Positions 1,431 through 43,069 of a stretch of 64,000 nucleotides of DNA are shown one piece after another. The number at the start of each line of letters is the position of its first letter. The first letter of the stretch is position 1. A program made the position numbers and the translations under genes. Below the pieces are notes generated by a model. The model was given only the letters and a program-made list of their open reading frames with translations. It did no database searches and was not told the origin of the DNA. The stretch comes from Oscillospiraceae bacterium (GTDB lineage Bacteria > Bacillota > Clostridia > Oscillospirales > Ruminococcaceae). The stretch is from NCBI GenBank assembly GCA_016281125.1, contig JAEEIA010000002.1, forward strand, positions 1-64,000, in the 5' to 3' direction.

Positions 1431-2915
1431 ATGACAGATCAAGGTTTTCGTATGCCGGAAATGCCGGATTTTCCACTGAACGACCCGCCCGCGCCGGAGC
1501 CGCCCGTGCCGCCCGCTGCGCCGCCGGTTTCGCAGCCGCCGCAGATGCAGCAGCCGGTCACACAGATCCCTGAAATTCCGCGGATTCAGCCGATTCCACC
1601 GGTTCAGCCAATCCCGCCGGTTCAGTCAGTTCAACCGGTTCAGCCGGATCAGTCAGTTCAGCCGATTCCACCGGTTCAGCCGGTACAGCCGGTTCAGTCG
1701 GTTCAGTCGGTACAGTCAGATCAGCCGGTACAGCCGGTATCGCAGGGCGCGTCCGCATCGCCGGATACACCGACGCAGATCAATCCGGCAGGAATCCCTG
1801 CGACGCCCATTCCTCCCGTACAGCCGCGCCCGGTTTACCCGCAGAATCCGTATGCCGGTCCGGCTCAGCAGGCAATGCCGCAGCCGCCATTCCGGCAGCC
1901 GGTGCCGCCGCCGCGTAACACGGTGCCGCCTGTTCCGCGCACCTATGACGATTTTTCGCCGGATACCAAACGCATTCTCGCGCTCCCGCCGATCACGACC
2001 AGAGAGGCGGAGAGCTGCCGTCACCGTCTAGAAAACCGCTGGTACCGCAGACTCATTCTGCTGAACGTCTTTCTCATTATGCTGACGATTGCGCTGGTTG
2101 CAACCTCAATGGATGACTACCGCAAGCAGGTCGCAAATCTGACCGCCAGCGTCCTTGCAGATGCTGCACACGGCAGTGACGATGAGGATGATGACTACGA
2201 GGAAACTTCCCGGGCGGATTACGAGGAATTTGCGGAGGATCTGCCGCTCGGCTTCCAGATGCTCGGCTACGGCATCGCGCTCATGACCATCGGCTACATC
2301 GCGCTGTACTATCTCAATGCGCAGGTGCGCGCACAGAGCATCAAAATCACGGAGAACAGCTTTCCGGAGCTGCACGCGCTGATCCGCTCGTATGCATCCC
2401 GCCTCGGCGTGCCGATTCCGGATGCGTACATTGTCAATGAAAGCGGCGTCCTGAATGCGTTTTCTGCGTTTCTGTACAGGCGGCAGTATATTCAGATTAA
2501 CTCCGAAATCGTGGAGGTCGCCTACCGCGAGCACAAGGATATGAATGCGCTGGCGTTTGTCATCGCGCATGAAATGGCGCATATTTACTACGGTCACGCC
2601 ACGCTGCATTACAATGTCTGGATCTGGTTTTCCACAAGACTCCCGCTGTTTTCGCAGATTGCATCCCGTACCCGTGAATACAGCTGCGACCGCCTTGCGC
2701 AGCGCCTGACCAATTACGACGGCCTCGGCGCCATGCTCATGCTGATTGCCGACCGGCATCTGTATCACATGGTCGATGTGCAGGATTACCTCAACGGCGC
2801 CGCACGGGAAACCGGGTTCTTTATCTGGCTGGTCAATCTGTTCTCCGATCATCCGATCATGACCAAGCGCATCCGCGCTCTTGCCGACTGGAACGGCCAC
2901 GGCGAGCTGTATTAA
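1431..2915 (+). CDS. M48-family membrane metalloprotease with Pro/Val/Gln-rich N-terminal repeats
   Basis: A 494-residue zinc metalloprotease of the M48 (HtpX/Ste24-like) type. Residues 1-170 are proline-rich and low in complexity, with many PVQP, SVQS and IPPVQ units (about residues 50-105). Two hydrophobic segments follow, near residues 205-222 and 276-295, separated by an acidic stretch. The zinc motif HEMAH begins at residue 380 inside FVIAHEMAHIYYGH, and a later EYSCDRLA segment can supply the third zinc ligand (Glu). The ATG at 1431 was chosen because AAAGGA lies 8 bases upstream and the longer frame would start inside the promoter. The product should sit in the membrane; its substrate is unknown. 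The Pro-rich tail may act as a spacer or wall-reaching arm (inference). Confidence 0.85.
   Translation: MTDQGFRMPEMPDFPLNDPPAPEPPVPPAAPPVSQPPQMQQPVTQIPEIPRIQPIPPVQPIPPVQSVQPVQPDQSVQPIPPVQPVQPVQSVQSVQSDQPVQPVSQGASASPDTPTQINPAGIPATPIPPVQPRPVYPQNPYAGPAQQAMPQPPFRQPVPPPRNTVPPVPRTYDDFSPDTKRILALPPITTREAESCRHRLENRWYRRLILLNVFLIMLTIALVATSMDDYRKQVANLTASVLADAAHGSDDEDDDYEETSRADYEEFAEDLPLGFQMLGYGIALMTIGYIALYYLNAQVRAQSIKITENSFPELHALIRSYASRLGVPIPDAYIVNESGVLNAFSAFLYRRQYIQINSEIVEVAYREHKDMNALAFVIAHEMAHIYYGHATLHYNVWIWFSTRLPLFSQIASRTREYSCDRLAQRLTNYDGLGAMLMLIADRHLYHMVDVQDYLNGAARETGFFIWLVNLFSDHPIMTKRIRALADWNGHGELY
1579..1742 (+). repeat. Degenerate 9-base coding repeats (CCGGTTCAG type)
   Basis: About 160 bases made of variants of a 9-base unit encoding Pro-Val-Gln or Ser-Val-Gln. 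It lies inside the N-terminal region of the M48 protease and is a likely site of repeat-number change. Confidence 0.8.
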
Positions 2916-2961
2916 GTTCCCTCTCCCCCGCCCCGGCCGACTTCCCGGAAATCCTCACAAT

Positions 2962-3008
2962 ACAAAACAGCCGCAGCATTGCCGGAACATCCGGCTTGCT
3001 GCGGCTGT
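2962..3008 (-). terminator. Terminator of the DUF2079-phosphatase unit
   Basis: On the minus strand a long stem ACAGCCGCAGC / GCTGCGGCTGT, extended by an inner CCGG pairing, runs into TTTTGT. It lies 12 bases after the phosphatase stop. Confidence 0.85.
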
Positions 3009-3020
3009 CTGATTGTCTGA

Positions 3021-3830
3021 TTACGCCTCATCCGGTGCGTCGGGCTGATCCTCGTCGTTCAGACCGGGAATCGGCACCTCATCCGGATAATGCAGCGCTG
3101 CGGCAACCGTGATATTATCCTTGCCGCCGTTCGCCAGCGCGAGCGCCACAAGCTCCTGCAAACGCATTTGCAGCGGCTTCGGCTTAGCCAGAACCTCCTC
3201 CATTTCAAAGGCGGTCACATAATCGCTCAGGCCGTCCGAGCAGAGAATCATCATATCCCCGGCGCGCATGCCGTCCGGATAAACAATGACCTCCGGCTTC
3301 GGCTCCGCATCCAGATTGCCGATGACCGGCATGACAATATGCCGGTGCGCATGCGACTTTTTCTCCTCCACGGAGATCGAGCCCTCCTCGTAGAGCATCT
3401 GGACAAGCGTCTGGTCGCGGCTGATCTGCTCCAGCGTGCCGCCGCGGTAACGGTAAATGCGGGAATCTCCGACATTGAAGCAGTGCAGGCCGCCGTCCTC
3501 GTCCACGGCAATGCCGCAGAGTGTGGTCTGCATATTGGCAGTGCTTTTCTGCATGACGCTCTGCTCCGCAATCTCCGTGTGAATCTCCAGAATCTTGCGC
3601 TTGAGATTCACGCGTGCGGAATACGCCACCTCTGAGAGCAGCTTTAAACAGGTCTGAGAGGCAAGCTCACCTGCCTGCTCACCGGACACGCCGTCGCAGA
3701 CCGCCATGACGAACGGCTCTGCGAGTGCGGTCAGCATACTGCCGTCCGTGCAGACCGCGCCCTCCAGCAGAAAGGCATCCTCATTGTGCGGCCGGTTGCC
3801 GACCTCTGTGATCGCACAGCAATAATACAT
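3021..3830 (-). CDS. PP2C-family serine/threonine protein phosphatase
   Basis: A 269-residue PPM/PP2C phosphatase of the PrpC/Stp type, which removes phosphate from Ser/Thr in proteins using two metal ions. The family motifs appear in order: RPHNEDAFL near the N terminus, VCDGVSGEQAGE, NVGDSRIYR, DQTLVQMLYEEG, LCSDGLSDYV and DNITVAAA. These carry the metal-binding aspartates. There is no membrane segment. The ATG at 3830 follows GGGGTGAG. The gene lies 44 bases downstream of the DUF2079 membrane protein on the same strand and probably shares its transcript. Its usual partner, a PASTA Ser/Thr kinase, is not in this window. Confidence 0.92.
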   Translation of the reverse strand: MYYCCAITEVGNRPHNEDAFLLEGAVCTDGSMLTALAEPFVMAVCDGVSGEQAGELASQTCLKLLSEVAYSARVNLKRKILEIHTEIAEQSVMQKSTANMQTTLCGIAVDEDGGLHCFNVGDSRIYRYRGGTLEQISRDQTLVQMLYEEGSISVEEKKSHAHRHIVMPVIGNLDAEPKPEVIVYPDGMRAGDMMILCSDGLSDYVTAFEMEEVLAKPKPLQMRLQELVALALANGGKDNITVAAALHYPDEVPIPGLNDEDQPDAPDEA

Positions 3831-37179: not shown

Positions 37180-37216
37180 CCCAAAAAATAAAGGAGGCTT
37201 CCGTTCCGAAGCCTCC
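37180..37216 (-). terminator. Terminator of the large non-coding RNA
   Basis: Perfect stem GGAGGCTTCGG / CCGAAGCCTCC (minus strand, two-base loop) followed by TTTATTTTTT. Confidence 0.9.
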
Positions 37217-37976
37217 CCTTATTTGCTATTCAGTTTTGGCGGTATAGATTGTGTGGATCTATATCAATGCCTTTCAGCATTTGTGCGGGAGCCGCTTCAC
37301 ATCCGCACGAGGATGCGCCCCGGTGCTCCCAAGCTGACCCGCTCACAGTCGTGCATCTGCCTGCGGGACGCACGGGGTAACATTCCTTTCCCCGTATTCT
37401 ATGACGGTCATTCATCGTTTCCTCAGCGGCCGCTGACAAAAGCCTTTCTCTTCAACCTTCATCTCCGCTGTCGGACCGTACCCTTTACAGTCCTGTTATA
37501 ATTCCCTGCTTGCTGCATTGCGGCTGCGTGCTGCATCAGCACCTGCCCATCGGCAGGCGGCATTCTGTGCCGATTTCCATATCGGAATCGCACCCGCATT
37601 TCCGGTCTCCGCGCCAGCTTTCAGATTTAGCGCATCACCGTCTGCAAGAGAGTGCATCAATGTCACACAGAACGCACCGCACGCGAGCCACCGTCATGGA
37701 ACGGGACGATTGCCATTGTATCCATTGGTCCTCACGCATCCTTTCTGGATCTGTTTTTACGGCTGGATCCCGGCCGACCGCTTGCTTGTCAGCCGTTACG
37801 AGATCCGCCCGGACGACGGGCGAACCGGAAACGCCGTATGATCCGGTACGATAAGAACAGCTGGAGCAGAGCTCCGGATGCTGCATCAGGCGAAACGCTG
37901 AATGGGATTCCCGAACTTGCCGCCCGTGCGGATCTGTTCGCTGCTTTCGCTCCGGTATCGGTATGCTGTTCTTATG
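37180..37976 (-). ncRNA. Candidate large structured non-coding RNA, about 0.8 kb
   Basis: A transcription unit with a consensus promoter (37982-38010) and a strong intrinsic terminator but no convincing gene: no long frame with a ribosome site on either strand and no coding look. The sequence is rich in local stems. An 11-bp perfect inverted repeat joins 37965-37975, at the predicted 5' end, to 37851-37861. Hairpins sit at 37863-37875, 37806-37822, 37759-37796 (ACGGCTG/CAGCCGT), 37571-37590, 37528-37542, 37542-37557, 37372-37395 (ACGGGG/CCCCGT), 37300-37315 and 37267-37280. I see no tmRNA, RNase P, SRP or 6S signature. Size, folding and a neighbouring tRNA recall the ROOL, GOLLD or OLE classes; I cannot tell which, or whether it is new. 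Confidence 0.7.
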
Positions 37977-37981
37977 GTTAT

Positions 37982-38010
37982 ATTATAGCACGATATTTCG
38001 GTTTTGTCAA
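37982..38010 (-). promoter_or_regulatory. Promoter of the large non-coding RNA
   Basis: Minus-strand TTGACA (38005-38010), 17-bp spacer, TATAAT (37982-37987). Both boxes are perfect, which suggests strong expression. Confidence 0.92.
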
Positions 38011-38089: not shown

Positions 38090-38118
38090 TTGACAAACGC
38101 AGAAAGTTGTGCTATAAT
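38090..38118 (+). promoter_or_regulatory. tRNA-Pro promoter
   Basis: TTGACA (38090-38095), 17-bp spacer, TATAAT (38113-38118). The tRNA starts 12 bases later. Confidence 0.92.
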
Positions 38119-42954: not shown

Positions 42955-42968
42955 AGGGCTGTAAAAAA

Positions 42969-43056
42969 GCAGGGGGAGCTTGTAGAGCAGGCTGAGAGGG
43001 CGCGTCAACGTGCCGACCCGGAACCTGATGCGGATAATGCCGCCGGAGGGATCGCG
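42969..43056 (+). promoter_or_regulatory. TPP riboswitch (THI element)
   Basis: The conserved cores are present in order: AGGGGGAGC, GCTGAGAGGG, GACCCGGAACCTGAT, then CGGATAATGCCG and GGAGGGA. It senses thiamine pyrophosphate and controls thiT by transcription termination (hairpin at 43070-43101). Confidence 0.96.
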
Positions 43057-43069
43057 GGATCAGTACGCC

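Follow-up and report, generated by a model that had tools for sequence, protein, structure and literature searches.

Among described systems, the closest comparisons for the RNA reported here are ROOL, GOLLD, and OLE, likewise large, intricately folded bacterial RNAs and of comparable size. The 6S RNA (SsrS) occupies RNA polymerase, CsrB is a sponge-type RNA, and dual-function RNAs such as RNAIII/hld and SgrS/sgrT combine a structured regulatory RNA with a short ORF. Two-codon minigenes, of which lambda bar is one, form a further point of comparison. Another, mg2 of axe-txe, consists of a start, one codon, and a stop at one site within an operon (PMC8708949). ROOL and GOLLD are described as often lying close to tRNA islands (PMC12286853). 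Here, we examine a minus-strand RNA unit in the gap between glgP and a tRNA-Pro gene of a Ruminococcus-like Oscillospiraceae bacterium of the gut or rumen, located within a 64,000-nucleotide stretch of contig JAEEIA010000002.1 (hereafter, the window).

The analysis confirmed this minus-strand RNA gene, first proposed in a first-pass annotation of the window. The promoter with its 17-bp spacer and the perfect-stem terminator with a T run are as originally described, and the proposed pairing of 11 bases at the 5′ end with positions 37851-37861 is exact (Table 1). The description of ~0.8 kb of stem-rich, highly structured sequence was borne out by a covarying fold of 145 pairs and by the folding energy of the minus strand (-320 kcal/mol, z -5.8, with 0 of 20 shuffles as good). 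The plus strand likewise outperforms its own shuffles (z -4.35); folding energy by itself thus leaves the choice of strand undecided. The neighboring tRNA-Pro has its own perfect TTGACA-17-TATAAT promoter (38090-38118, plus strand), which points away from the RNA promoter. Elsewhere in the window, a TPP riboswitch (42962-43069, plus strand) scores barely over the Rfam gathering score (55.6 versus 54.3 bits).

Table 1. Features of the RNA gene in window coordinates.
Feature	Position	Strand	Support
Promoter, perfect TTGACA-17-TATAAT with TG extended -10	37982..38010	-	Sequence; TTGACA-17-TATAAT shared by 20/20 + 5/5 genus loci
RNA gene, ~0.79 kb, beginning directly behind the -10 box and ending in the T run; 5′ end predicted	37185..37981	-	
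P1, 5′ end ATAAGAACAGC (37965-37975) with GCTGTTCTTAT (37851-37861), closing a variable 5′ domain	37851..37975	-	
Upstream domain, helices 1-4 (37747-37751/37840-37844 and inner helices)	37747..37844	-	Helix 4: 8/9 pairs with double change
Predicted ribosome-binding region, AGAAAGGATGCGTGAGG	37730..37746	-	Family-wide pattern
ORF1, 20 codons + TGA (MDTMAIVPFHDGGSRAVRSV)	37663..37725	-	
Local ORF1 hairpin, UGCGUGAGGACC (37727-37738) with GGCUCGCG arm (37680-37689); excludes helix 6	37680..37738	-	
Helix 5, ORF1 codons 9-12 (37691-37700), long-range with 37398-37407	37398..37700	-	10 pairs, 6 with double change; 96.4% of cells paired
Helix 6, 37679-37689 with 37522-37531	37522..37689	-	10 pairs, 2 with double change; 100% of cells paired
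Helix 7, ORF1 end (37665-37675) with 37560-37570	37560..37675	-	11 pairs, 5 with double change
3′ domain hairpins, helices 17-22	37243..37374	-	Helices 17 and 18: no double change
Intrinsic terminator, AGGGGAGGCTTC...GAAGCCTCCTTT, 12-bp perfect stem	37190..37219	-	Helix 23: 3 pairs with double change

In this part of the window, a search with all Rfam models, as the first-pass annotation had suggested, returned the tRNA alone, together with low-scoring chance matches far under the gathering scores (E up to 10). Membership in ROOL, GOLLD, or OLE is ruled out, since none of these covariance models matched even at E up to 10. Across 20 loci from relatives, nothing but 6S reached gathering scores; these RF00013 matches are separate genes and none falls on the window RNA, which excludes a 6S identity. 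A phage origin was also rejected: a viral-contig scan gave eight matches to the family pattern (which misses some genus copies), each is followed by an ORF of at least 40 codons, and none corresponds to this RNA or to ROOL, GOLLD, or OLE. Unlike those three classes, the window RNA is chromosomal, belongs to a type usually found at a DUF1292/6S locus, and contains an ORF with a candidate ribosome site. The earlier proposal of a divergent ROOL, GOLLD, or OLE member is therefore unsupported; its other suggestion, a new large RNA class, gains support from the lack of an Rfam match, occurrence in 25 of 30 genus genomes, and strong covariation. We found no description of this RNA in a literature search confined to open-licence papers. 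These observations place the RNA in an unrecognized family absent from Rfam 15.

Within the genus, a DNA search matched 20 of 29 genomes (the window's own excluded) and 0 of 31 genomes outside it. A covariance model of the core located the RNA at 26 places in 25 of 30 genus genomes; two of the five genomes with no model match are >95% complete (G014 and G015). All of the first 20 genus loci combine a perfect TTGACA-17-TATAAT with a CAUAAGAAC-like 5′ end and a AAUAAGGGG...CCUUUAUU-type terminator, giving the same type of 3′ end throughout and RNA lengths of 630-836 nt. The same promoter was found in all five further genus loci. Relatives that bear a name are MAGs of rumen and gut origin, labeled as uncultured Ruminococcus sp., Oscillospiraceae, or Clostridia. 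A genus-tuned pattern matched 29 contigs, 6 of which carry names of other groups. One genome (G008) carries two diverged copies, L037 (or L020) and L046.

RNAalifold predicted 161 pairs from 11 full-length genus sequences. After viewing the pair table, we dropped 16 that were isolated, weak, or in the ORF1 start region, leaving 145, with 96.9% of cells paired. The covariation among relatives that had been proposed as a check was found: 49 of the 145 pairs change on both sides, compared with 23.8 ± 2.9 in shuffles that ignore relatedness (0/500 as high), and with at most 9 when the partner was slid by 1-3 columns, a comparison that favors the structure because structure and test share one alignment. 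The RNA thus has the conserved secondary structure with compensatory changes that characterizes large structured RNAs. Helices formed by the 5′ end with at least six strict pairs recur, with changes, in most of the 25 genus copies and are unconvincing in L007 and L043-L046. Three core helices (5, 6, and 7) are built from ORF1 codons, such that codons 9-20 lie in covarying helices.

The first-pass annotation had also seen no reading frame that combines a ribosome site with coding character. This is incorrect: the 20-codon ORF1, which is shorter than the 30-amino acid limit of the ORF list, lies behind AGAAAGGATGCGTGAGG and is open in 25/25 genus copies read, window included (the search string did not pick up the copy in L045, which was read manually). 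The description "apparently non-coding" must accordingly be amended to accommodate a conserved short ORF on the minus strand and, in relatives, arrays of mini-ORFs. In every genus copy read, a Shine-Dalgarno/AUG site opens an ORF1 of 20-26 codons; its length changes are multiples of three, and TGA, TAA, and TAG stops all occur. Codons 2-12 contain an in-frame stop in 0 of 24 distinct loop segments, compared with 10.4 of 24 in column shuffles. Amino acid replacements are conservative (BLOSUM sum of 103 versus -16.6 for the null; 45 of 2,000 shuffles as high), and two ORF1 peptides had no Pfam match. A synonymous bias among homologs, named at the outset as evidence against a non-coding RNA, did not appear (26 synonymous codon differences versus 25.7 expected), and we rejected ORF1 as an ordinary conserved peptide gene on this test. 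The conservation of ORF1 could accordingly be partly structural. The frame is kept, with the peptide at most weakly selected.

The spacer between AAAGG and AUG is 11-14 nt, longer than usual. Among the 11 genus sequences, no compensatory change is seen in the local ORF1 hairpin, and a tally of its arm letters is suggestive but mixed. Across the family, a first-ORF hairpin scores at least 14 in 41 of 56 loci, compared with 3 and 3 in control windows, and its 3′ arm varies in step (GGCUCGC, GACUCG, GGCUCAC, and GGGCUUGC).

The usual neighbor of the RNA is a DUF1292 gene (PF06949, E 6.4e-17), located upstream and divergent at 21/25 genus loci and at 39/49 short-ORF loci outside the genus. Beyond DUF1292, 6S RNA was found at 4 of 7 loci in one set and 8 of 20 in another, which are lower bounds owing to short flanks. 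All four genus relatives searched have 6S near the RNA, and four of five genus 6S matches fall just under the curated cut-off. The 6S gene is a separate RNA gene of the same chromosomal neighborhood, differing from the window-type RNA in sequence and size. A tRNA lies within the fetched flanks at 1 of 25 genus loci, and we discarded tRNA linkage as a clue; the adjacent tRNA gene, originally read as a ROOL/GOLLD-like sign, is incidental. In the window genome, DUF1292 and 6S are encoded on the same contig, 37 kb from the RNA, which is absent there. That DUF1292-6S locus (G000 contig C32, 74783-75338; L198, ~2784-3340) has an ancestral appearance. The window RNA retains the glgP side, common to three relatives. 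Given that the DUF1292-6S locus stands 37 kb away, that the glgP side is shared, and that the fetched flanks hold a tRNA at a single genus locus, tRNA-Pro is a newcomer.

Beyond the genus, the covariance model gave weak matches in 5 of 396 family genomes. Two of these (L048 and L051) were dropped as protein-coding by eye, and the remainder pointed to other genera, in which a longer RNA begins alike. The start pattern GAAAGGN{0,5}GYGAGNCCNATGG retrieved 65 places in 62/396 family genomes, spanning 30 of 126 genera; some matches are ordinary genes, and the reversed control gave none. A slightly stricter pattern applied at the class level matched 4 of 342 genomes, all from the same order. At 47 of 51 distinct family places examined, the first ORF is 16-28 codons in length. 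Inspection by eye showed that the first ORF of other genera frequently starts M-[ED]-x-x-E-x-Q and that the peptide is little conserved between genera. The window's genus as a whole shares the family features, namely GAAAGG..GYGAGnCCnAUGG leading into a first ORF of 16-28 codons, the hairpin, and a divergent DUF1292 gene. The window copy escapes the strict pattern because GAG and CC are separated by two bases, and its DUF1292 neighbor has been lost.

Family members at the same DUF1292/6S locus share this kind of first ORF and add arrays of start sites whose frames end after 1-3 or ~10-13 codons. We analyzed 46 distinct RNAs with first ORFs of 10-35 codons, taken from the majority (but not the whole) of the 65 pattern places plus earlier loci and three class-level loci; L091, L105, L106, L116, and L117 (ORFs of 3, 2, 35, 25, and 340 codons) were left out before counting as ordinary or unclear. 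Among these 46, many of which are related and all of which come from loci picked by the first-ORF motif, UCC[AG]AUG occurs besides ORF1 at 115 sense sites versus 1 antisense (Markov null, 8.7 ± 3.4). A stop follows within three codons at 89 of the 115 (null, 1.3), compared with 38 and 14 in frames +1 and +2. The most common two-codon form is AUG-GCA/GCU-stop (29/59). When all Shine-Dalgarno AUGs with at most 16 codons are counted, the 46 RNAs contain 309 sense and 20 antisense sites, versus 88 in the Markov null. Between neighboring sites, 48-58-nt spacings are enriched (74 versus 14.9 ± 3.8 under random placement) and those <40 nt are depleted (35 versus 68.4 ± 6.3). The favored pitch of about 52 nt is close to the 30S initiation footprint, which is ~54 nt. 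Like the axe-txe minigene, these sites comprise a start, a codon or few, and a stop; unlike it, several occur on one stand-alone RNA. To our knowledge, no other RNA is built of start-stop mini-ORF arrays near the ribosome pitch.

The start-stop signal persisted upon thinning to 15 RNAs without mutual blastn links, where 19 of 25 UCC[AG]AUG sites stop within three codons and 1 site is antisense. The enrichment of 48-58-nt spacings shrank (9 versus 3.6 ± 1.9 in the 15 unlinked RNAs; 6 versus 1.6 ± 1.2 in 10 clusters), which slightly lowered our confidence in the ribosome-based readings given below. Loci were also chosen independently by DUF1292 alone, giving 30 loci from 60 family genomes searched; at least two of these 30 genomes also belong to the motif-chosen set. 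UCC[AG]AUG sites were present at 22 of the 30, and 16 had a site stopping within three codons. Collectively, these loci contain 51 sense sites, 30 of which stop within three codons, and 3 antisense sites, all at one locus and none stopping within three codons. Of 29 loci anchored on DUF1292 in the order but outside the family, 28 lacked a site stopping within three codons. In the window's genus, no UCC[AG]AUG site besides ORF1 occurs in any of the 25 copies. Many GGnGUGAGUCC copies lack an AUG, such as GGAGUGAGACCACC and GGAGUGAGUCCGACAGG. Several array RNAs (L052, L053, L075, and L085) carry GGAGUGAGACCACC or GGAGUGAGUCCGCC without AUG close to their 3′ end, and GGAGUGAGUCCGACAGG internally. 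A different array layout is seen in L124 (G416), where a run of 11-12-codon ORFs ~95 nt apart begins ~400 nt after ORF1. In the window RNA, a GATTCCGATATGG stretch looks like a relic start site, and GGGTGCGATTCCGATATGG (37577-37595, minus strand) resembles the array start-site motif and may be such a relic turned hairpin; the AUG is not preserved across the genus alignment.

Taken with some reserve, as it falls a little short of an even chance, the interpretation we favor is a strongly promoted regulatory RNA that would engage ribosomes as a sponge or sensor, with the ribosome landing site as its working part. We infer both ribosome binding and function from the family, fold, and ORFs described above. 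The ORFs are too short to yield a useful protein, so the RNA would instead park, sense, or count ribosomes, occupying them as 6S occupies RNA polymerase. Each array site would hold one initiating ribosome, and the array RNAs seem made for binding several ribosomes without yielding a product. In the window-type RNA, where ORF1 codons form the central long-range helices, a translating ribosome and the folded core would exclude each other: ribosomes may load during transcription and keep the core open, or the core may close and shut ORF1. The window RNA is probably a derived family member, given that its relatives share the locus, its landing site is similar, and the array is absent; in its genus, an ornate fold around one site would have replaced the array, perhaps as a ribosome-responsive switch. 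A bolder version, possible and more doubtful, posits a "ribosome rack" family in the Ruminococcus family: stand-alone RNAs with strong promoters beside 6S that would hold one initiating ribosome per ~52-nt module on ORFs too short for protein, as a translational counterpart of 6S. The window's genus would then have condensed the rack to one site whose codons are core helices and whose occupancy switches the fold. Several points count against a ribosome-based reading: the AAAGG-AUG spacer is long, many GGnGUGAGUCC copies lack an AUG, the window's genus lacks the array, 5 of its 30 genomes have no model match, the spacing signal shrinks upon thinning, and ORF1 has no synonymous excess. Once the RNA is complete, its long-range helices could also keep ribosomes away from ORF1.

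The same double use of ORF1 codons can be explained by an ornate non-coding RNA of the ROOL/GOLLD/OLE kind, acting as a scaffold or cage, with the ORF a by-product of conserved structure. Size, complexity, covariation, the placement of codons 9-20 in helices 5-7, and the missing synonymous excess all agree with this explanation, which we nonetheless regard as unlikely. The stop-free loop segments (0/24 versus 10.4 expected) and a stop codon that varies among TGA, TAA, and TAG are not what a structural by-product predicts, the corresponding locus of other genera encodes start-site arrays, and no Rfam model matches. A large structured non-coding RNA would also lack a conserved ORF, and ORF1 is present in all 25 genus copies. 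A dual-function or plain mRNA, in which ORF1 encodes a functional small peptide and the remainder is a regulatory untranslated RNA, is marginally less probable again. It would account for a frame that survives in-frame length changes at 20-26 codons, for replacements more conservative than in shuffles (103 versus -16.6; 45/2,000), and for the recurrent M-[ED]-x-x-E-x-Q start seen by eye in other genera. It fits poorly with the lack of a synonymous excess and of Pfam matches for two peptides, and >90% of the transcript lies outside ORF1. Unlike the peptides of RNAIII/hld and SgrS/sgrT, this one is by eye little kept between genera, where mini-ORFs encode 1-3 residues.

Two further explanations bear chiefly on the arrays. 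Ribosomes on mini-ORFs might shield a long RNA whose true function, in base-pairing or protein binding, lies elsewhere. The array pitch would provide dense cover, and the axe-txe two-codon minigene is described as acting in cis, possibly shielding its mRNA from an endonuclease (PMC8708949). Such protection leaves unexplained both the ORF1 codons in the window-type core fold and why, by eye, little else is conserved between array sites; we consider it improbable. Least probable of all, the RNA could be a CsrB-like sponge that acts as a decoy, titrating whichever RNA-binding protein or antisense RNA recognizes GGAGUGAGUCC near the start sites. The GGnGUGAGUCC copies without AUG (GGAGUGAGACCACC and GGAGUGAGUCCGACAGG) would suit a decoy, as would a sub-threshold CsrC match on the terminator stretch of L042 (19.6 bits, cut-off 61), which we take as chance. 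A decoy predicts neither the stop that comes after AUG at 89/115 sites nor the dependence on frame (38 and 14 of 115).

If ribosomes do occupy this RNA, important gut and rumen bacteria would possess a global regulator of translation encoded beside 6S, a global regulator of transcription. In the window-type RNA, moreover, the same bases are both codons and covarying core helices of a large fold. Such double use is rare, and through it the competition of ribosome and RNA folding becomes open to experiment.
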